Under the pieces are notes generated by a model. It searched no databases, was not told where the DNA came from, and worked only from the letters and a program-made list of their open reading frames with translations. DNA of 37,442 bases, taken from contig CALWZK010000018.1 of the NCBI GenBank assembly GCA_944386015.1, forward strand, positions 1 to 37,442, given 5' to 3'. Shown piece after piece: positions 2,776 through 11,783 of this stretch (its first letter is position 1; every line of letters starts with the position of its first letter). The stretch is from an uncultured Faecalibacterium sp. (GTDB lineage: Bacteria; Bacillota; Clostridia; Oscillospirales; Ruminococcaceae). The translations under genes and the position numbers were made by a program.

Positions 2776-3885
2776 ATGTATTCCGAAGAAAATTCTGACG
2801 CCCGCCCGCTGTGCGTGGCGCTGCTGTTCGGCGGTATGTCCAGTGAGCACGAGGTCAGCCGTGTATCGGCAGGCACCTTTGTGGACAATATGGACCCCGC
2901 CAAGTATGAAGTGATCAAGATCGGCATCACCAAAGATGGCCGCTGGCTGTACACCGAGGCCTCCCCGGCTCAGATGGCAGACGGCAGCTGGGAAGAGCTG
3001 CCCGGCAATATGCCCTGCTCCATCAGCCCCGACCGCGCCGACCACGGCGCCATCCTGTTCACCCCCGCCGGCCATGTGGAAAAGCTCCACATCGATGTGG
3101 TGATCCCCGCCCTCCACGGCCTGTGGGGTGAGGACGGCACCGTCCAGGGCCTGCTGGAGCTGGCCGGCATCCCCTATGTGGGCTGCGGCGTTCTGGCCAG
3201 CGCCGTGTGCATGGATAAGGCAGTGGCCAACGCCCTGTTTGCCGCCAACAACATCCCCCACTGCGCCTGGGCTGCCTACACCAAGGCACAGCTGGAGGCT
3301 GACCCCGAGGGCATCTATACCGCACTGGAAGCCAAGCTGGGCTGGCCCATCTTTGTCAAGCCGGCCAACGCCGGCTCCAGCGTGGGCATCAGCAAGGCAG
3401 CCAACCGGTCCGAGCTGGCCGAGGCCGTCAAGCTGGCCCTTGCCAACGACCGCAAGGTGGTCTTTGAGGCCTTTGTGGACGGCCAGGAAGTGGAGTGCGC
3501 GGTGATCGGCTCCGAACCCGCTGTGGCCACCCGCCCCGGCGAGATTCTGGCCGGCGCCGAGTTCTATACCTACGATGACAAGTACAAGAACGGCGTCAGC
3601 GAGACGCTGATCCCCGCCCGGCTGTCGGAAGAGAAGCTGGACGAAGTGAAGGATTATGCAGCCAAGGCCTACACCGCTGTGGGCTGCGAGGGCCTGGCCC
3701 GGTGCGACTTCTTTGTGGAGCGGGGCACCGGCCGTGTGATGATCAACGAGATCAACACCTTCCCCGGCTTTACCTCTATTAGTATGTACCCGAAACTGAT
3801 GGAGCACGAAGGCACCCCCCTGCCCCAGCTCATTGACCGCCTCGTTGCTCTCGCAATGGAAAGGGCGGTGGCACACCATGGATAA
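2776..3885 (+). CDS. ddl: D-alanine--D-alanine ligase
   Basis: A 369-aa ATP-grasp enzyme that joins two D-Ala to make the dipeptide used by MurF in peptidoglycan synthesis. Family landmarks are LLFGGMSSEHEVS near the N-terminus, LHGLWGEDGTVQGLLEL, the glycine-rich loop KPANAGSSVGISKA, and the C-terminal metal/ATP site INEINTFPGFTSISMYPK. An in-frame GTG at 2764 overlaps the ribosome site, so the ATG at 2776, 11 nt after GGAG, is the better start. It overlaps murI by 8 bp, implying translational coupling in a cell-wall operon. Confidence 0.96.
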   Translation: MYSEENSDARPLCVALLFGGMSSEHEVSRVSAGTFVDNMDPAKYEVIKIGITKDGRWLYTEASPAQMADGSWEELPGNMPCSISPDRADHGAILFTPAGHVEKLHIDVVIPALHGLWGEDGTVQGLLELAGIPYVGCGVLASAVCMDKAVANALFAANNIPHCAWAAYTKAQLEADPEGIYTALEAKLGWPIFVKPANAGSSVGISKAANRSELAEAVKLALANDRKVVFEAFVDGQEVECAVIGSEPAVATRPGEILAGAEFYTYDDKYKNGVSETLIPARLSEEKLDEVKDYAAKAYTAVGCEGLARCDFFVERGTGRVMINEINTFPGFTSISMYPKLMEHEGTPLPQLIDRLVALAMERAVAHHG

Positions 3886-4702
3886 TCGCCCCATCGGCGT
3901 ATTCGACAGCGGCCTGGGCGGCCTGACCGGCGTCCGGGAGCTCCGCAAGCAGCTGCCCGGGGAGGACATCGTCTATTTCGGCGACACCGGCCGGGTGCCC
4001 TACGGCAGCCGCAGCCATGAGACCATTCTGCAGTATGCCCGGCAGGACATTGCCTTCCTGCTGTCCCAGAACGTCAAGTGCATCATGGCTGCCTGCGGCA
4101 CCGTGTCCAGCACCTTCCCCGCCGAGGAAGCCGCCAAGCTCCCTGTACCTTATATGGGCGTGGTGGCGTCGGCCGTCCGCAAGGCAGCCTGGGCCACCCG
4201 CAACCGGAAGATCGGCGTCATCGGCACGGCGGCCACCATCCGTTCCCGCAGCTATGAGCAGCTGCTGCGGCGGCTGGTGCCGGGGGCCGAGATCACGGCC
4301 CGGCCCTGCCCCCTCTTTGTGCCGCTGGTGGAAAGCGGCTATGTGGACGGCTCCGACCCCGACAAGCAGCAGATCACCAAACTGGTGATCCGCCAGTATC
4401 TGGAGGAAATCCGGGACGCCGGGGTGGACACCCTGGTGATGGGATGCACCCATTACCCCCTGCTGGCCGGGATGATCGGCGAGTACATGGGGCCCTCGGT
4501 CACCCTGGTTGACCCCGGCCGCGCCGCTGCCGACGACCTGAGCAAGCTGCTCAGCAGCAAGGGGCTGCGGGCCCACCGGGACCAGGGCTCCACCCACTTT
4601 TTCGTGAGCGATGTGCCCGACAGCTTCGTCCAGACCGCCGACCTGTTCCTGGGTGAGTACCGGGGCGGGACCGCCGAGCAGATCTGCATCGACAAATACT
4701 GA
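3878..4702 (+). CDS. murI: Glutamate racemase
   Basis: A 274-aa cofactor-independent racemase making D-Glu for peptidoglycan. The N-terminal PIGVFDSGLGGL, DTGRVPYG, and the two catalytic cysteine regions AACGTVSS (C73) and MGCTHYPLL (C190) are visible. The first is usually CNTA in well-known MurI proteins and here reads CGTV, so the residue after the catalytic cysteine differs. The ATG at 3878 lies inside the end of ddl. The stop is 13 bp before the GTG of the next gene and overlaps its ribosome site. Confidence 0.95.
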   Translation: MDNRPIGVFDSGLGGLTGVRELRKQLPGEDIVYFGDTGRVPYGSRSHETILQYARQDIAFLLSQNVKCIMAACGTVSSTFPAEEAAKLPVPYMGVVASAVRKAAWATRNRKIGVIGTAATIRSRSYEQLLRRLVPGAEITARPCPLFVPLVESGYVDGSDPDKQQITKLVIRQYLEEIRDAGVDTLVMGCTHYPLLAGMIGEYMGPSVTLVDPGRAAADDLSKLLSSKGLRAHRDQGSTHFFVSDVPDSFVQTADLFLGEYRGGTAEQICIDKY

Positions 4703-4715
4703 GGACAACAATACT

Positions 4716-5159
4716 GTGAGCAAAGCCTTGAAGGAAAACTATATCATTCGGATCAAAAGCCAGATTGAACAGGACGGCGAAACCGAACAGGTGGAGCTGA
4801 TGACCCGCGGCAGCTTCGCCCTGCGGGAGGGCAGCTATTATATCACCTATCGGGAGACTGAGACCACCGGCTATGAGGGCTGCGTCACCACCCTGAAGAT
4901 TGCAGCCGACTCCAGCCGGGTGGCCCTGCTCCGCTTCGGGCCCCAGGCCAGCCAGCTGATCATCGAGCGGGGCCGGCGCAACCTCTGCCACTACGAAACC
5001 GGTTACGGCTCGGTGACCCTGGGGGTGACAGCCGACGGCATCGAGTGCGGGCTGAGCCCCAGGGGCGGCACCGCCCGGTTCAGCTATCTGCTGGACGGCG
5101 ACGTATCCACCCTCATCAGCCGCAACTCCCTGGAAGTCTCGGTGACCCACATCAACTGA
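4716..5159 (+). CDS. DUF1934 family beta-barrel protein (YwiB-like)
   Basis: A 147-aa protein starting with GTG (4716) about 10 nt after GAGGA. It resembles the DUF1934/YwiB family, small calycin-like beta-barrels of unknown function. Typical are the opening IRIKSQIEQDG, EGSYYITYRETE, the middle FGPQASQLIIERG, and the closing ending in a short SLEVSVTHIN strand. No catalytic residues are apparent. Its position directly before argS is the same as ywiB-argS in Bacillus, which supports the assignment but not a function. Confidence 0.85.
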   Translation: MSKALKENYIIRIKSQIEQDGETEQVELMTRGSFALREGSYYITYRETETTGYEGCVTTLKIAADSSRVALLRFGPQASQLIIERGRRNLCHYETGYGSVTLGVTADGIECGLSPRGGTARFSYLLDGDVSTLISRNSLEVSVTHIN

Positions 5160-5208
5160 GCTGTCTCTGTCTGTTTTGATTTGTCCAAGAGAAAGGAATC
5201 ATTGTCCC

Positions 5209-7023
5209 ATGAACAACGCAACCTACCCTGCATTCGAGAACTACAACCCCCGGCAGGCCGCCCTGCATGAGGCCCGCGCCCTGCTGACCCAGGCTGCCCA
5301 GGCTGCCATGGAGGCCGGCGATCTGCCTGCCGCCGAGCTGCCCGCCTTCATTGTGGAAGTGCCCGCCGACACCAAGAACGGCGACATCGCCTCCAACATT
5401 GCCATGGCCGGCGCACGCACCTGGCACAAGGCCCCCAGGATGATTGCAGAGGCCATCCTGAACCACCTGCCCGCCCTCACGGACAGCTGCTTTGAGAAGG
5501 CCGAGACCGCCGGCCCCGGCTTCATCAACCTGTTCCTGTCCCCTGCCTTCTGGGGCGGCGTGGTGCTGGCTGCCTGCAGCAACGACCAGTACGGTCGGAC
5601 CGATTACGGCCAGGGCAAGCGCTACGACGTGGAATTCGTCTCGGCCAACCCCACCGGCCCCATGCACATGGGCAACGCCCGGGGCGGCGCTCTGGGCGAC
5701 TGCCTGTCTGCAGTTCTGGAATGGGCAGGTTACGATGTGACCCGCGAGTTCTACATCAACGATGCGGGCAACCAGATCCAGAAGTTCGGCAAGAGCCTGG
5801 CCATCCGGTATCTGCAGCACTACTACAGCGCTGAGGAGTATCCCCTGCCCAAGGAGTGCTACCAGGGCGCTGACATCACCCAGCTGGCCTGCGAGTTTGC
5901 CGGCATCGAGGGCGACAAGTACGCTGCCCCCTGCCGCGGCCTGCAGGACGAGGCCCTCTACGAGAGCGAGGCCTTTGGTGCCCTGAAGGACGCTCTGGTG
6001 GGCTACGCCCTGCCCAAGAACATCGCCAACCTCAAGACCGATCTGGGCAAGTACCGCATCCAGTACGATGTCTGGTTCCCCGAGAGCACCCTCCACGCCT
6101 CCGGCGCAGTCAAGGGCGTGGTGGACCAGCTGCTGGAAAAGGGCGCCTGCTACAAGGCTGAGGACGGCGCCATCATGTACCGCAGCGCCCAGTACGCTGC
6201 CAAGTACGGCGCAGCCAACAAGAAGAAGAGCGACGACGGCGTGGAGGAGGACAAGGACGAGGTCCTGGTTCGTGCCAACGGCATCCCCACCTACTTTGCC
6301 GCCGACATCGCCTACCACTACAACAAGCTGGCCGAGCGGGGCTTTGACAAGGCCATCGACGTCTGGGGCGCCGACCACCACGGCCATGTGGCCCGCATGA
6401 AGGGCGCCATGGACGCCATCGGCCTGGACGGCAGCCGCCTGGATGTGGTGCTGATGCAGATGGTCAACCTGATGCAGAACGGCCAGCCCGTCCGGATGTC
6501 CAAGCGGACCGGCAACGCCATCACCCTCACCGACCTGCTGGAGGAAGTGCCTATCGACAGCGCACGGTTCCTCTTTAATATGCACGAGGCCGGCAGCAGC
6601 ATCGACTTTGACCTGGACCAGGCTGTCAAGACCGACAACGACAACCCCGTCTACTATGTCCAGTACGCCCACGCCCGGATCTGCTCCATCCTGCGGAAGC
6701 TGTCCAGCGAAGGGGTGGAATTTGCAGGTGCCGAGAAGGTAAACGCCACCCTGCTGACCGACCCCGCCGAGCTGGATCTGATCCGGATGCTGGCCGCCTT
6801 CCCCCAGGAGATCGTCCTGGCCGCCGAGAAGTACGATCCCAGCCGGATCAACCGCTTTGTCATTGATCTGGCCAGCGCCTTCCACCGCTTCTACGGCAGC
6901 TGCCGCATCCAGGGCGCTGACCCCGCCCTGCAGCAGGCCCGGATTGCCCTGTGCATCGGCGTGCGCAACGTGATCCGCAATGTGCTGACCATGTTCAAGA
7001 TCAACGTCCCCGACAAGATGTAA
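5209..7023 (+). CDS. argS: Arginine--tRNA ligase
   Basis: A 604-aa class I aminoacyl-tRNA synthetase charging tRNA-Arg. The N-terminal Add-1 domain is followed by the HIGH-like motif HMGN (residues 153-156, within GPMHMGNARGG) and the KMSKS-like MSKR (430-433). The C-terminal anticodon-binding domain ends in the typical NVLTMFKINVPDKM. The ATG at 5209 follows AAAGGA. It is 49 bp after the DUF1934 gene and is the last gene of the operon, with a terminator at 7033-7063. No T-box precedes it. Confidence 0.98.
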   Translation: MNNATYPAFENYNPRQAALHEARALLTQAAQAAMEAGDLPAAELPAFIVEVPADTKNGDIASNIAMAGARTWHKAPRMIAEAILNHLPALTDSCFEKAETAGPGFINLFLSPAFWGGVVLAACSNDQYGRTDYGQGKRYDVEFVSANPTGPMHMGNARGGALGDCLSAVLEWAGYDVTREFYINDAGNQIQKFGKSLAIRYLQHYYSAEEYPLPKECYQGADITQLACEFAGIEGDKYAAPCRGLQDEALYESEAFGALKDALVGYALPKNIANLKTDLGKYRIQYDVWFPESTLHASGAVKGVVDQLLEKGACYKAEDGAIMYRSAQYAAKYGAANKKKSDDGVEEDKDEVLVRANGIPTYFAADIAYHYNKLAERGFDKAIDVWGADHHGHVARMKGAMDAIGLDGSRLDVVLMQMVNLMQNGQPVRMSKRTGNAITLTDLLEEVPIDSARFLFNMHEAGSSIDFDLDQAVKTDNDNPVYYVQYAHARICSILRKLSSEGVEFAGAEKVNATLLTDPAELDLIRMLAAFPQEIVLAAEKYDPSRINRFVIDLASAFHRFYGSCRIQGADPALQQARIALCIGVRNVIRNVLTMFKINVPDKM

Positions 7024-7032
7024 CAGCCTTTT

Positions 7033-7063
7033 CCCCGCCCCTTTGGGTGCGGGGATTTCTTTT
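7033..7063 (+). terminator. Rho-independent terminator after argS
   Basis: Stem CCCCGCCCC / GGGTGCGGGG with a TTT loop, followed by ATTTCTTTT, 10 bp after the argS stop. Confidence 0.85.
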
Positions 7064-7108
7064 GGCCGATTGTCTGCACATTGTACAACAAATATTTAAC
7101 AATCTACA

Positions 7109-7136
7109 TTTAAACTATACAAAAACACAATATAAT
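7109..7136 (+). promoter_or_regulatory. Upstream promoter of the large RNA (P1)
   Basis: A consensus TATAAT (7131-7136) in an A/T-rich stretch, with a weak -35 TTTAAA (7109-7114) at 16 bp. It would start transcription near 7143. Confidence 0.5.
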
Positions 7137-7154
7137 CCTTGTGGATTCTGCGAA

Positions 7155-7183
7155 TAGACAACCGAGACCTTTTTGGGTATACT
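7155..7183 (+). promoter_or_regulatory. Main promoter of the large RNA (P2)
   Basis: TAGACA (7155-7160), 17-bp spacer, TATACT (7178-7183). Each hexamer differs from consensus at one position. It predicts a start near 7190, just ahead of the structured region. Confidence 0.65.
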
Positions 7184-7443
7184 ATAGCCAGAAACCAAGA
7201 AAGTACAGCAGAGGATCAAAAGAGATCCAATCCCGCTGACTTAAAGGGAGAAAGGAGCGAAGACCGATGGTTGATACGACACCCGCACAGTTCGGACAGA
7301 CTGTCGGGAATTGCTGAATAAGCGAAAAGCCGCTTACCAGAACGGGATGTTTCCCCCGCAAATGTAAAATCCAAGAGATTTAAAGCGAAGTCTTTAGCAT
7401 ATAGAAGCGATTTACGAACAGTCTGTCGAGAAACCCCTTGGCG

Positions 7444-7545
7444 ATTCAAATAGATCCGCAGGAAGTGATTCAGATGATGAAAGCTTTTATACGGATACCA
7501 GTATTTGAATAGCACGGAAGGAGCTACTCCAATGATTTAAGTAGT
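7444..7545 (+). repeat. Internal duplicated module of the large RNA, copy 1
   Basis: Shares with copy 2 an ATTCAAATA..CCGCA block (7444-7460), ATGAAAG, a TATTTGA(A/G)TA(G/A)CACGGA segment, and the identical 15-mer TACTCCAATGATTTA (7525-7539). The last forms part of a small GGAG/CTCC hairpin. The spacing between matching blocks is 496-501 nt throughout. Confidence 0.8.
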
Positions 7546-7939
7546 CGTGTCCTCAAGGCAAATGGCAAACCTGGATTGGAATTGATGTAAAGCAAGGGCA
7601 GGCTGAACCTGCATGCGATTGATCAAAAGAGCTGGAAGCTGAGGCGGAAGGCAGATCGGTTCCCTGCTGAGTGTCAATTTGGATGAATCCGAAACTGTAA
7701 AGGGCAGTTCCAAAAAGAATTGCTGTACAGAAAAAGGTCTATCTGGAAATTGCACGCAGGTGAAAGATCCAATGGCTTGATCGGCGGCGATGTGCCCCAT
7801 CAAAGCATCAACAGATCAAAGGATCATGTACTGGAAGCCGGAAGGATTGCATAACACCATTCCCCTAAGATCAAGTGAATCCCAAGAATAGCCTGAGGGT
7901 AATTTTAAGCTGAATAATTTCCCGATCCGACGAAAGGTC

Positions 7940-8045
7940 ATTCAAATAAAACCGCATTCAAGGAAGGATGATCCCCCATGAAAGTCCCTGTATGGATGCA
8001 GATATTTGAGTAACACGGAGGGAGTACTCCAATGATTTAGGCAAC
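7940..8045 (+). repeat. Internal duplicated module of the large RNA, copy 2
   Basis: Counterpart of 7444-7545 with substitutions and small indels. The 15-mer TACTCCAATGATTTA is at 8025-8039, exactly 500 nt from copy 1. The hairpin core here is the self-complementary GGAGTACTCC. Confidence 0.8.
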
Positions 8046-8277
8046 TTGTCCCCTGGAGTGATTCAATCGAGAGAATGTGTTTCTATGAAGTTACTTCGTA
8101 AGACGCAATCCAACGATTTGGATGAGGCTTGAAACCAATGTACTAGTTAAATCAGCGAATCCCCTACCCTATCATTTCCGAAGCATAAGGAAAGGCCAAT
8201 ACTCATGAAAGGTAAGGTCAACTCCGAAAAATAGGCAATGTGAGGCAAAGAGGCTATGACTCCGAAGAAGTAAGCAT

Positions 8278-8330
8278 CCTGGCGGATGAGAGGCTTGCAA
8301 CCGCTCTCATCCGCCAGGTTTTTTTGTTTT
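8278..8330 (+). terminator. Strong terminator of the large RNA
   Basis: A 15-bp perfect stem (8278-8292 with 8304-8318), 11-nt loop, then TTTTTTTTTG TTTT. It separates the RNA from the metG promoter. Confidence 0.93.
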
Positions 8331-8394
8331 GTTTTCCATACTTCCCTCCCCTGCCGGCCGGAGGGAAAAATTGCAGGCCTGGGGGAACTTCCTG

Positions 8395-8423
8395 TTGACA
8401 AACGGCGGCGCTTCTCCTATAAT
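8395..8423 (+). promoter_or_regulatory. Consensus sigma-A promoter of the metG operon
   Basis: A perfect TTGACA (8395-8400), 17-bp spacer, and perfect TATAAT (8418-8423). Such a strong promoter suits control by attenuation in the T-box that follows. Confidence 0.92.
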
Positions 8424-8431
8424 AACTACGA

Positions 8432-8737
8432 TATACAATCGGCTGTGAAGAGAAGAGTAAGCGCTTTGTGATCCTTCCAGAGAGCCCGCGGCGGTGAAAC
8501 CGGGCAGGCATCGGGGCGCTGAACATGGTCTCGGAGCCGCACAGGCGAAGCGGGTGTGATCCCCCCTGAGTCTGCGCCGGGTGCGCCCGTTACAGCGTCC
8601 GGCTGTGCCCGGCTTTGCCGGGACGCAGCATCGAGGCCGTGCCCCGCAAGGGACCGGCGAACCAAGGTGGTACCACGGAAGTATTCAGCTCCCGTCCTTG
8701 CAGGGCATGGGCCTTTGCAGGGACGGGAGCTTTTTGC
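8432..8737 (+). promoter_or_regulatory. Methionine T-box riboswitch
   Basis: A tRNA-sensing leader that terminates transcription when tRNA-Met is charged. Stem I carries the AG-bulge segment AGAGAGC (8480-8486). The specifier loop is GAACATGG, with specifier AUG at 8525-8527 and AGTA opposite. The T-box proper, AAGGTGGTACCACGG, is at 8664-8678. Its UGGU would pair with a tRNA end ACCA, the A73 discriminator of tRNA-Met. The terminator stem is AGCTCCCGTCC (8687-8697) with GGACGGGAGCT (8721-8731), then TTTTG. It controls metG and probably the genes behind it. Confidence 0.96.
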
Positions 8738-8820
8738 TTCCTCTTTTGCAATGCTACAGGCCTTTCCGCCGGGCTGCGGCCGGGCGGAGGGACCTCAACG
8801 GAAAAGGGAGAATACAAATC

Positions 8821-10815
8821 ATGTCTGAACAGAAAAAGTTCTACATCACCACCCCCATCTACTACCCCAGCGACAAGCTGCACATCGGCCACAGCTACAC
8901 CACCGTGGCCTGTGACGCGCTGGCCCGCTTCAAGCGCAAGCAGGGGTACGACGTGATGTTCCTGACCGGCACCGACGAGCACGGCCAGAAGATCGAGGAC
9001 AAGGCCGCGGCCGCCGGGGTGCAGCCCAAGGAATATGTGGACCGCATCGTGGCCACCGTCAAGGACCTGTGGAAGCTGCTGGACGTCAGCTACGACCGCT
9101 TCATCCGCACCACCGACGACTACCACATCCAGTCCTGCCAGAAGATCTTCACCCAGCTGTACGAGCAGGGCGACATCTATAAGGGCGAGTATGTGGGCCA
9201 CTACTGCAAGCCCTGCGAGAGCTTCTGGACCGACAGCCAGCTGGTGGACGGCAAGTGCCCCGACTGCGGCCGCGAGGTCTACGATGCCCACGAGGAGGCC
9301 TACTTCTTCCGCACCGGCAAGTACGCCGACCGCCTGCTCAAGCTCTACGAGGAGAACCCCCAGTTCATCCAGCCCGAGAGCCGCAAGAACGAGATGATCG
9401 CCTTCATCAAACAGGGCCTGCAGGACACCTGCGTCTCCCGTACCTCGGTCAAGTGGGGCATCCCCGTTCCCTTCGATCCCAAGCACACCATGTACGTCTG
9501 GGTGGACGCCCTGAGCAACTATATCTCGGCCCTGGGCTACGGCAACGAGAAGTACCACGACTATGACAAGTTCTGGCCCGCCGACCTGCACATGGTGGGC
9601 AAAGAGATCCTGCGGTTCCACACCATCCTGTGGCCCGCCATGCTGATGGCTCTGGATCTGCCCCTGCCCAAGCGGGTATTCGGCCACGGCTGGCTGCTGA
9701 TGAACGGCGGCAAAATGTCCAAGTCGGTGGGCAACGTGGTGGACCCTGTGATCCTCTGCGACCGCTACGGCGTGGACGCCATCCGCTACTTCCTGCTGCG
9801 TGAGATCCCCTTCGGCAACGACGGCATGTTCACCAACGAGGCCCTGATCAACCGGATCAACAGCGATCTGGCCAACGACCTGGGCAACCTGCTGAGCCGC
9901 ACCGTCGCCATGTGCGAAAAGTACTTCGGCGGCACGGTGTCCAAGACCGCCGGCTCTGAGGCCATTGACGCCGAGCTGGAAGAGATGATCAGCGCCCTGC
10001 CCGCCAAGGTGGCTGAGGACATGGACAACCTGACCATCCCCCAGGCTCTGACCGAGATCTTCGCTGTGGTGCAGCGGGCCAACAAGTATATCGACGAGAC
10101 TGCACCCTGGGCCCTGGCCAAGGACCCCGCCAACCAGGACCGTCTGGCCTGCGTGCTGTACCATCTGTGCGAGGCCCTGCGGGTCTGCGCCATCCTGCTG
10201 AATGCTTATCTGCCCTCCACTGCGCCCAAAATGATGGAGCAGCTGGGCCTGTCTGCTGACAGCCTCAAGCTGGATCTGGCCGCCTATGGCCTCCAGGAGA
10301 GCTACACCGTCCACAAGGGCGAGCCCCTGTTCCCCCGCATTGACGTGGCCAAGGAGATCGCTCACCTGAAGGCAGAGGACGAGAAGCGCAAGGCCGCCGC
10401 CGAGGCCGCCAAGAAGGCCAAAGAGGCCCAGGAAGCTGCTGCCAAGGCAGCTGAGCAGCCCGCCGCCGAGCTGGAGCACGAGGCCGAGATCAGCTTCGAC
10501 GACTTCTGCAAGATCGAGATGCGGGTGGCCGAGGTTCGTGCCTGCGAGACCCTGAAGGAAAGCAAGAAGCTGCTCCACCTCACCGTCTTTGACGGCGAGC
10601 GGGAGCGCTGCATCCTGTCGGGCATTGCCAAGTGGTACAGCCCCGAGGATCTGATCGGCAAGAAGGTGGGCATTGTGGCCAACCTGGCACCCCGGCCCAT
10701 GATGAAGGGCAAATATGTCAGCGAGGGCATGATCGTGGCCTCTGACACCGCCGACGGCGGCTGCGCCATCGCCTTCTATCCCGACGATGTGCCCGCCGGC
10801 AGCCGGATCCACTAA
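8821..10815 (+). CDS. metG: Methionine--tRNA ligase
   Basis: A 664-aa class I synthetase. HIGH is at residues 21-24, KMSKS at 298-302, and a zinc knuckle of two CxxC pairs at C129/C132 and C146/C149. After the anticodon domain comes a charged, Ala/Lys/Glu-rich linker (about 515-555), then the C-terminal Trbp111-type tRNA-binding domain (about 558-664, starting SFDDFCKIEMRVAEVRA). The ATG at 8821 follows AAAAGGGAG. Expression is controlled by the Met T-box upstream. The EamA transporter gene starts 14 bp after the stop. Confidence 0.98.
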   Translation: MSEQKKFYITTPIYYPSDKLHIGHSYTTVACDALARFKRKQGYDVMFLTGTDEHGQKIEDKAAAAGVQPKEYVDRIVATVKDLWKLLDVSYDRFIRTTDDYHIQSCQKIFTQLYEQGDIYKGEYVGHYCKPCESFWTDSQLVDGKCPDCGREVYDAHEEAYFFRTGKYADRLLKLYEENPQFIQPESRKNEMIAFIKQGLQDTCVSRTSVKWGIPVPFDPKHTMYVWVDALSNYISALGYGNEKYHDYDKFWPADLHMVGKEILRFHTILWPAMLMALDLPLPKRVFGHGWLLMNGGKMSKSVGNVVDPVILCDRYGVDAIRYFLLREIPFGNDGMFTNEALINRINSDLANDLGNLLSRTVAMCEKYFGGTVSKTAGSEAIDAELEEMISALPAKVAEDMDNLTIPQALTEIFAVVQRANKYIDETAPWALAKDPANQDRLACVLYHLCEALRVCAILLNAYLPSTAPKMMEQLGLSADSLKLDLAAYGLQESYTVHKGEPLFPRIDVAKEIAHLKAEDEKRKAAAEAAKKAKEAQEAAAKAAEQPAAELEHEAEISFDDFCKIEMRVAEVRACETLKESKKLLHLTVFDGERERCILSGIAKWYSPEDLIGKKVGIVANLAPRPMMKGKYVSEGMIVASDTADGGCAIAFYPDDVPAGSRIH

Positions 10816-10829
10816 AAGGAGGAGCTGTT

Positions 10830-11783
10830 TTGCCCTCTGACAATACCCCTCGCAGCGCCAAGCTGGACGCCCTGTTTGGGGCGCCGGTGTTTGCGGTGCT
10901 CTTTGCCATCCTCTGCAACTGCTTTTGGGGGTCGGCTTTCCCCTTCATCAAGATGGGGTACCGCCTCTTTGCCATTGACGCCGCCGACACCGCCTCCATC
11001 CTCTGTTTTGCAGGGGTGCGGTTCATGCTGGGGAGCCTGCTGGTCCTGCTGGCCGGGGCGGTGCTGGAAGGCCATCTGCCTTCCCTGCCCCGGGGCAAAG
11101 TGCTGGCAGAGTGCTGCGCCCTGGGCCTGTGGCAGACCACCATCCAGTATGCCTTCTACTACGCAGCTGTTGCCCTGCTGACCGGCGCCTTCGGCGGCAT
11201 CCTGAACAGCACCCAGAGCTTCCTGGGGGTGATTCTGGCCCACTTCCTCTACCGGACCGACCGGATGACCCCCGCCAAAGCGATAGGCTGTGTGGTGGGC
11301 TTTGCCGGCGTGCTGGTGGCCACCATCGGCAACCACGGCGGCGGCAGCGGCTGGGGCATCCTGTATATGATGACCGCCACCGTGATCTTCACCATCTCGG
11401 GCCCCTGGAACAAATCCATCACCCGCAAGGCTGACAGCTTCGCGGTCTGCGTTTTGAACCTGGGGGTGGGCGGCCTGGCCCTGCTGGTGCTGGGCCTGCT
11501 GCTGGGAGGCTCTCTGGCACCCCAGAGCCCCCTGGGCATCCCGGTGCTGCTGTATCTGGCCTTGGTTTCGGGGGCCGGGTACGTCCTCTGGGCTCTGCTG
11601 ATGAAAAACAACCCCGTCAGCCGGATCAGTGTCTTCGGGCTGGTCAACCTGGTGGTCAACGTGCTGCTGTCTGCGCTCCTGAACGGGGAGCCCCTCTGGG
11701 AGTGGCAGTACCTGGCGGCCTTGGTACTGGTCTGCACCGGCATCTGGCTGGTCAACCGCCGCGGAAAGGAGGCCCGGACATGA
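10830..11783 (+). CDS. EamA/DMT family transporter
   Basis: A 317-aa protein with about ten hydrophobic segments in two halves, the drug/metabolite transporter (EamA) pattern. Visible pieces are NCFWGSAFPFIKMG in the first helix region, GFAGVLVATIG at the end of the first half, and NLVVNVLLSALLNGEPL in the second. The start is TTG at 10830, correctly spaced after AAAGGAGGAG. The substrate cannot be told from sequence. Lying behind the Met T-box and metG, it may export or import an amino acid or related compound, but that is inference. It shares a 4-bp ATGA overlap with the TatD gene. Confidence 0.88.
   Translation: MPSDNTPRSAKLDALFGAPVFAVLFAILCNCFWGSAFPFIKMGYRLFAIDAADTASILCFAGVRFMLGSLLVLLAGAVLEGHLPSLPRGKVLAECCALGLWQTTIQYAFYYAAVALLTGAFGGILNSTQSFLGVILAHFLYRTDRMTPAKAIGCVVGFAGVLVATIGNHGGGSGWGILYMMTATVIFTISGPWNKSITRKADSFAVCVLNLGVGGLALLVLGLLLGGSLAPQSPLGIPVLLYLALVSGAGYVLWALLMKNNPVSRISVFGLVNLVVNVLLSALLNGEPLWEWQYLAALVLVCTGIWLVNRRGKEART

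Follow-up and report, generated by a model that had tools for sequence, protein, structure and literature searches.

Which kind of gene fills the stretch between argS and metG in an uncultured Faecalibacterium sp.? In the window (the whole stretch of 37,442 nucleotides analysed here, from contig CALWZK010000018.1 of assembly GCA_944386015.1) argS ends at 7023 and the ATG of metG lies at 8821, both gene names being confirmed by NCBIfam; a glutamate racemase gene is seen at 3833-4702, upstream of argS. A preliminary description, made from the letters alone, placed a structured non-coding RNA of about 1.1 kb in this gap. Is this RNA indeed non-coding and, if not, what might it do?

Two longer minus-strand ORFs in the gap (99 aa and 88 aa) have no match to an NCBIfam family and are broken or frame-shifted in all seven aligned long-form relatives, for which reason both were rejected as conventional genes. 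A 59-aa minus-strand ORF (7182-7361) is open in three of these seven relatives. The NCBIfam results and the frames of the relatives thus agree with the original claim of a stretch of about 1.1 kb without a conventional gene between argS and metG, and the lower GC content noted there was also found (0.41-0.51 per 200 nt in the RNA stretch against 0.57-0.67 in its flanks within 5000-11000).

The features of the RNA are collected in Table 1. The promoter at 7155-7183, with TAGACA (the terminal part of TGCGAATAGACA) as its -35, matches the consensus at 10 of 12 positions. Three promoter-like sites (one of them that of metG) occur in 6900-8900 against 2.0 +/- 1.5 in shuffles, a count so near to the shuffle level that consensus matches alone prove nothing. 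With its upstream element TGCGAAT and the same -10, however, the 7155-7183 promoter is conserved in relatives of four genera (G009 is without it, by the expression used). Of the near-consensus promoters proposed earlier this one therefore stands, whereas the eight long forms do not share the TATAAT at 7131-7136. The conserved TGCGAATAGACA over the -35 is possibly the site of a dedicated regulator or sigma factor. TGCGAATRGAC is found once in the genome of the window (89.6% complete), at this RNA; a regulon sharing the element was rejected, as the other matches are without a properly placed -10 (by eye), and a reversed-pattern control was as frequent as TGCGAATRGAC itself. At the 3' end, the terminator arms (8278-8292 and 8304-8318) pair at 15 of 15 positions, just as the 15-bp stem had been described.

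Table 1. Features predicted for the micro-ORF RNA, in positions of the window
Feature	Position	Strand	Details
Promoter and upstream element	7149..7183	+	TGCGAATAGACA, 17-nt spacer, TATACT as -10
Predicted transcript	7190..8325	+	5' end deduced from the -10, 3' end from the terminator
SD of ORF A	7252..7257	+	AAGGAG
ORF A	7267..7317	+	MVDTTPAQFGQTVGNC-stop; intact in 8/8 long forms
P1 domain	7295..7427	+	Arms about 7295-7315 and 7407-7427
Hairpin around ORF B1	7441..7513	+	Arms 7441-7452/7502-7513, 92% complementary
ORF B1	7477..7512	+	MKAFIRIPVFE-stop; open in 8/8 long forms
Minigene 1	7532..7540	+	ATG ATT TAA, SD AAGGAG; 8/8 long forms
Variable middle segment of the long form	7553..7939	+	Between the two copies of the B-minigene module
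ORF B2	7978..8013	+	MKVPVWMQIFE-stop; second copy of the B module; 8/8 long forms
Minigene 2	8032..8040	+	ATG ATT TAG; 18 nt past ORF B2 stop; 8/8 long forms
ORF C	8085..8132	+	MKLLRKTQSNDLDEA-stop, weak SD; 8/8 long forms
Minigene 3	8138..8146	+	ATG TAC TAG; 5 nt past ORF C stop; 8/8 long forms
ORF D	8205..8234	+	MKGKVNSEK-stop, ending at CCGAAAAA run; 8/8 long forms
ORF E, last micro-ORF	8256..8273	+	MTPKK-stop; 4 nt ahead of terminator stem; 8/8 long forms
Intrinsic terminator	8278..8325	+	15-bp stem and T run

No credible Rfam match (Rfam 15) to 7190-8330 was obtained at E <= 5. Scanning 7020-8830 with cmscan at E <= 5 gave nine matches, and scanning six loci of relatives at E <= 1 gave five (one 6S RNA, and weak chance matches); none of these concerned OLE, GOLLD or ROOL. 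A known RNA family was rejected, the sole strong match nearby being the separate T-box of metG (RF00230) at 8436-8702, downstream of 7190-8330 (88.4 bits, gathering 93). The suggestion of an undescribed family has thus come through the cmscan check. A stand-in for 6S RNA or tmRNA was likewise rejected: 6S RNA scores over the cut-off in 9/9 genomes and tmRNA in 8/9 (not in G241), at other places. At 6177-6365 of L106 (genus g134), some 2 kb downstream from the array, there is a 6S RNA.

As to the neighbouring genes, argS lies directly upstream of the RNA in eight long forms, and of 20 wide Faecalibacterium loci 16 include metG in the fetched sequence, in either orientation. In the window, metG has a consensus promoter of its own (TTGACA-17-TATAAT, 8395-8423), and a terminator-like hairpin at 8687-8731 goes with its T-box leader. 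The next genes, picked by a GC3 heuristic and named by eye, differ among 16 examined loci (some are convergent), and no downstream cistron is shared across these 16. A leader of metG was rejected because the next genes vary and metG varies in orientation or is absent.

Homologues are present in 28 of 31 Faecalibacterium genomes, with blastn and a model of the 3' end (R1) in agreement; the proposed BLASTN check in relatives therefore speaks for conservation. R1 finds the RNA in all 22 near-complete genomes of the genus, so that ordinary gut isolates should serve to test it. No homologue was detected by blastn in 30 sampled genomes of other genera. Over the family, R1 matches 20/396 genomes in 5/126 genera, and a second model (R2) matches 32/35 Gemmiger genomes (18/19 of the near-complete ones); both models were trained on the 3' end, and conservation there is consequently in part by construction. 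Besides Faecalibacterium and Gemmiger, three more genera of the family have homologues, although for the fifth genus (g77) the 3' end alone was seen, on a short contig. A search across the taxonomic order matched 8/394 genomes, five of which are Faecalibacterium; weak matches in G778, G201 and G671 were dropped, as by eye they are chance matches in coding sequence. The 30 named records of a pattern scan comprise Faecalibacterium, Gemmiger, one Subdoligranulum and one Oscillospiraceae MAG. Neither blastn against phages and plasmids nor the 3'-end pattern in viral_contigs (0 matches) gave a match. A mobile origin was rejected on the basis of these three collections, in line with the earlier remark that the chromosomal place is unlike the phage or plasmid setting of GOLLD and ROOL.

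The 28 Faecalibacterium RNAs include eight of the 1.1-kb form, 16 of about 0.6-0.65 kb, which carry the B-minigene module once rather than twice and miss the middle segment, and four that are more divergent. The length of 1.1 kb given at the outset thus holds for the window, but within the family it is specific to one group: locus length varies almost threefold, from 568 to 1595 nt over 65 loci. These values include 10 nt ahead of the promoter element and 60 nt past the last stop; the RNAs themselves are consequently somewhat shorter. Genus g37 has two tandem copies downstream of argS (L104, 3680-5030; L105). Each copy is flanked by a promoter and a terminator of its own; of the two in L105, the one nearer to argS no longer has ORF D. 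Three dispersed copies were seen in a Gemmiger formicilis genome (G450, contigs C38, C40 and C43), two of them ending with MTPII, not MTPKK. The set of 65 RNAs used below was drawn from 68 loci selected among those fetched: two internal minigene matches and two duplicates were left out, L104 and L105 give two RNAs each, and G009 (L048) and G018 (L049) were added by hand. By the expressions used, L206 has no terminal ORF, and L048, L049, L058 and L213 have no promoter; L058 and L213 enter only the motif count of ORF D. The sequences are related, and the counts are therefore not independent events.

A recurring order is observed among these RNAs: ORF A with its SD (15-16 codons), one or more modules that each consist of an ORF of roughly 7-16 codons and a two-codon minigene (AUG-NNN-stop), ORF D (7-12 codons across relatives), ORF E (five codons) and the terminator. 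Sought by an SD such as that in Table 1, ORF A was found in 64/65 RNAs and has 15-16 codons in 63 of the 64. In all eight long forms nine micro-ORFs are intact (7267, 7477, 7532, 7978, 8032, 8085, 8138, 8205 and 8256) and begin at the same ATG, whereas the frames in the segment between the B modules all vary in length. At 7968, 7992, 7996 and 8075 overlapping frames are likewise open in 8/8, and the choice of frame is thus not unique there; the one at 7968 (13 codons, in another frame) overlaps ORF B2, and the one at 8075 (8 codons in seven genomes, 4 in one) is an alternative to ORF C. Other common ATGs (7347, 7585, 7790, 7826, 8122 and 8238) open frames that differ in length among the eight. 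ORF B1 has an extra in-frame ATG at 7474, and its stop codon, 19 nt before the start of minigene 1, sits in the 3' arm of the surrounding hairpin. The second module is recognizable as a repeat (7940-8051 against 7444-7552, 71% identity). In the middle segment of about 390 nt the ATGs common to the eight genomes (7585, 7790 and 7826) open unequal frames; the segment might derive from the decay of another complete copy of the RNA, with which it shares a few words, though no convincing alignment was obtained. SD matches are weak at ORF C and at some copies of ORF B, and several Gemmiger RNAs of 1.35-1.5 kb have just 2-5 short ORFs preceded by an SD (3-4 in the g37 RNAs).

The minigenes are far more frequent than in shuffles. 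The 28 Faecalibacterium RNAs contain 65 occurrences of SD-ATG-NNN-stop against 3.4 on average over 50 shuffles (maximum 10), and the 37 other RNAs contain 37 against 3.5 (maximum 7); the RNA of the window has three, a number reached by 1 of 500 shuffles. Limiting the search to SD-CC.ATG sites whose ORF does not exceed five codons gives 86 sites in 58 of the 65 RNAs. Exactly two codons precede the stop in 69 of these (TAG 33, TAA 31, TGA 5) and three to five in the remaining 17, while at CTCC[AG]ATG sites, with any ORF length allowed, the two-codon stop is seen in 50/56. The second codon (n=86) is TAC in 57, ATT in 16, AAC in 4, ATC in 3 and TTC in 3, with three others once each. The search expression for minigenes itself fixes part of this answer.

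Spacing is conserved as well. Within 45 nt upstream of 80 of 92 two-codon minigenes an ATG ORF of 7-20 codons terminates, at a distance of 19 nt in 35 cases, 18 in 15, 16 in 10, 5 in 9 and other values in 11. A start 16-19 nt past an upstream stop is seen for 60/92 minigenes, against 27/1004 other ATGs and 41/1300 positions drawn at random from these RNAs. Split by group, this spacing applies to 43/63 minigenes in Faecalibacterium (there a preceding stop lies at another distance in 14, and none is in reach in 6), 11/19 in Gemmiger, 3/4 in g37 and 3/6 in g134.

Near the 3' end, 55 of 67 RNAs carry the motif CCGAAAA (12 are without it), and all 55 have ORF D: a stop codon follows the A-run immediately, and an ATG in the same frame precedes it by 7-12 codons. 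The run has five As in 38 RNAs (TAG 16, TAA 16, TGA 6) and four in 17 (TGA); the two classes are read in different frames, each with an in-frame start. An ATG in another frame is also present within 40 nt in 13 of the 53 motif RNAs belonging to the 65-RNA set. For the last ORF, variants of which are present in other genera, the stop lies 4 nt before the terminator stem in 51/65 RNAs (TAA 48, TAG 13, TGA 4), and the peptide is MTPKK in 39, MTPIK in 12, MTPII in 5, MKPII in 3, MTPIG and MTPKM in 2 each, and MTPIM and MSPKQ in 1 each, although its length and some of its letters were already set by the search expression. Taken together, these comparisons indicate that the RNA carries a series of micro-ORFs that are probably translated. 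The label 'non-coding' given to it at first does not fit this comparative evidence of kept starts and stops, varying stop types and frame-compensated indels.

The RNA is also partly structured. The 10-bp helix noted earlier, with 113 nt between its arms, is exact (7295-7304 with 7418-7427, 10/10 pairs). The 5' strand of P1 is the 3' half of ORF A and its partner segment lies about 100 nt downstream, so translation of ORF A and formation of the P1 stem should be mutually exclusive. Folding is more stable than in shuffles for 7260-7455 (z = -2.92, 1/200 shuffles as stable) and for 7190-8140 (z = -3.67, 0/20), but the middle (7553-7940) is no more stable than chance (z = -0.29, 37/100 shuffles); the description as a structured RNA thus applies to the 5' domain and to 7190-8140, not to the middle. 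Covariation, sought in the 5' domain and counted as RNAalifold's compensatory pairs, was found there, as the check proposed at the outset had asked of the helices: both sides change in 4/18 predicted pairs in Faecalibacterium (three of them in P1) and in 10/22 in Gemmiger (five in P1, four in an inner hairpin), with small covariation terms (-1.02 and -0.89 kcal/mol). Swapping P1 arms between genera weakens the stem, from a cognate mean of -28.7 to -21.1 kcal/mol in Faecalibacterium and from -34.4 to -21.3 kcal/mol in Gemmiger. Cognate arms beat every between-genus swap in 43/63 sequences (57% of the swaps in the lowest sequence), and when the 3' arm is shuffled, 0 to 5 of 100 versions pair as strongly. 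For g37, arms exchanged within the genus pair a little more strongly (-30.9) than the cognate ones (-28.6). By eye, different genera share an AUAGAU-like motif that comes after P1.

Evidence for purifying selection on the peptides is mixed to absent. Counting along a minimum spanning tree, we found no excess of synonymous changes in ORF A of Faecalibacterium (14/61, expected 15.5) or in ORF D (9/50, expected 12.1), and a mild excess in ORF A of Gemmiger (12/25, expected 8.5), ORF B (7/22, expected 4.9) and ORF C (11/28, expected 7.4). ORFs of other length were left out (8 from B, 8 from C, 7 from D and, for ORF A, those not of 16 codons). The ORF A peptide of Gemmiger is nearly invariant (MANFKDPIHHRRAWAC), which could point to a peptide role. 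Judged by these sequence comparisons, frames and boundaries are better kept than the peptides, which appear to be weakly constrained or not at all.

What could such an array do? We consider it about an even call that the locus is an RNA gene standing on its own, with a product that consists of micro-ORFs translated in a serial array and that acts via ribosome occupancy. Comparison between genomes supports the conserved frames, the spacing, the P1 stem and a promoter and terminator of its own; from these we infer transcription and translation in the cell, re-initiation and a cellular effect. Ribosomes would load at ORF A, the strongest site, and its translation would open the P1 stem that its own sequence forms. 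With the stop of the longer ORF usually 16-19 nt before the minigene start, a terminating ribosome would cover the next binding site, that of the minigene, and could re-initiate. The last five-codon ORF would finish about 4 nt ahead of the terminator. The peptides would largely be by-products, and conservation would concern the sites of ribosome start, stop and pausing. The most likely effect of the RNA would be to park or titrate ribosomes and initiator tRNA, or to read translation capacity via its fold and stability; we favour ribosome occupancy since the peptides seem weakly constrained, the spacing suits a hand-over and no shared downstream gene was found. Titration presupposes an abundant RNA, and this abundance is assumed here. 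That the family represents a new RNA class, a 'ribosome ladder' whose function is to have ribosomes load, terminate and re-initiate in order along serial micro-ORFs, is put forward more tentatively, at somewhat less than an even chance. If true, common gut bacteria would have in it a built-in means to gauge or store translation capacity.

The same observations can be read in other ways. Two-codon ORFs with a strong SD fit the toxic minigenes in the cited part of PMC8708949, and the restricted second codon (TAC 57 and ATT 16 of 86) would suit a growth brake in which the minigenes release peptidyl-tRNA, deplete the Tyr and Ile tRNAs and slow growth. This is rather unlikely in our judgement: TAG is used 33 times against 31 for TAA, though UAA minigenes are the more toxic according to the same part of PMC8708949, Phe and Asn codons substitute at codon 2, and the longer ORFs and the last ORF, neither of which a tRNA sink needs, are conserved too. 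Unlikely, too, is that the micro-peptides themselves are the product, as signals or regulators. The nearly invariant ORF A of Gemmiger and the mild synonymous excess (12 against 8.5 there, 7 against 4.9 in ORF B and 11 against 7.4 in ORF C) argue for such a role, but ORF A of Faecalibacterium and ORF D show no excess, the peptides differ widely between genera and dipeptides are, in our opinion, unlikely effectors. The compensatory changes and the arm-swap test in P1, the z of -3.67 for the whole RNA and the AUAGAU-like motif shared by different genera after P1 (by eye) might instead suggest a base-pairing or scaffolding RNA, with P1 or another segment as effector and ribosomes mainly protecting it from decay; we regard this as similarly unlikely, since the folding signal is absent from the middle segment and protection alone fails to explain the tight spacing between stop and start.

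Two further alternatives concern the ends of the RNA and its ORFs as such. A translation-controlled attenuator for metG, with a ribosome on ORF E blocking the terminator, would agree with the stop-to-stem distance of 4 nt in 51/65 RNAs, with the overlap of ORF A and a stem as in leader-peptide attenuators, and with the presence of metG in 16/20 wide Faecalibacterium loci, following the RNA in the window. It is very unlikely, however, given that metG occurs in either orientation or is absent from wide loci, that the next genes differ in the 16 loci, some being convergent (GC3 heuristic, names by eye), and that metG of the window has its own promoter (8395-8423) and T-box (8436-8702). Conserved ORF segments also pair (ORF A in P1, the end of ORF B1 in a hairpin) and nucleotide conservation explains much of the peptide conservation, as expected for a purely structural non-coding RNA in which the ORFs are accidents of conserved sequence. 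Nonetheless, we deem such an RNA highly improbable: the stop type varies while the stop position is kept, both frame classes of ORF D keep an in-frame start (55/55), and the 16-19-nt spacing stands out from its controls.

Leader-peptide attenuators of the trpL/ermC type have a short ORF that overlaps a stem or abuts a terminator, much as ORF A overlaps a stem and ORF E abuts the terminator; unlike in these, no conserved same-strand regulated gene was found downstream, and the ORFs are many and serial. With OLE, GOLLD and ROOL, for which the cited part of PMC12286853 gives an RNA-only homo-oligomeric complex as a feature, the RNA shares its size range and the stand-alone transcription unit, but it has no Rfam match, carries conserved short frames and occupies a locus of 0.57 to 1.6 kb. 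The proposed membership in their size class thus holds as to size range, while length is the only basis for kinship, in a family whose length varies almost threefold. Short ORFs on an RNA without a long ORF are shared with the peptide-coding and dual-function sRNAs of PMC5521070, a survey that, in the part cited, looked at ORFs of 10-50 aa; here, unlike there, the ORFs mostly have 2-16 codons, are serial with fixed spacing, and the peptide appears weakly constrained or not at all. The 5' domain may be among the 3161 candidate structured RNAs reported in the cited part of PMC8040213, as an uncharacterised motif. No description of a serial micro-ORF array occurs among the matches listed in openly licensed papers; with this and no match in Rfam 15, the RNA family can be called categorically new, a statement limited to Rfam and to the literature among those matches. 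If the frames are translated, this conserved gene would seem to yield no protein and no non-coding RNA of the conventional kind but a pattern in which ribosomes are positioned, and structured-RNA searches and searches for peptides of at least 10 residues can each miss such a gene.

Another close parallel is offered by the two-codon minigenes, which include bar of phage lambda and are known mainly from toxicity studies and leaders. They act in leaders or by tRNA depletion according to the cited part of PMC8708949, where the axe-txe leader also carries them. As in these minigenes, AUG-NNN-stop with an SD is kept in evolution here, and the effect would be expected via ribosomes and tRNA, not via a product. 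In the present RNA, unlike in the known cases, several minigenes alternate with longer micro-ORFs on a stand-alone RNA without a main cistron, and the array is conserved in two well-sampled genera as well as in relatives of these. Two-codon minigenes would thereby gain a natural, conserved setting, provided that the frames are translated.
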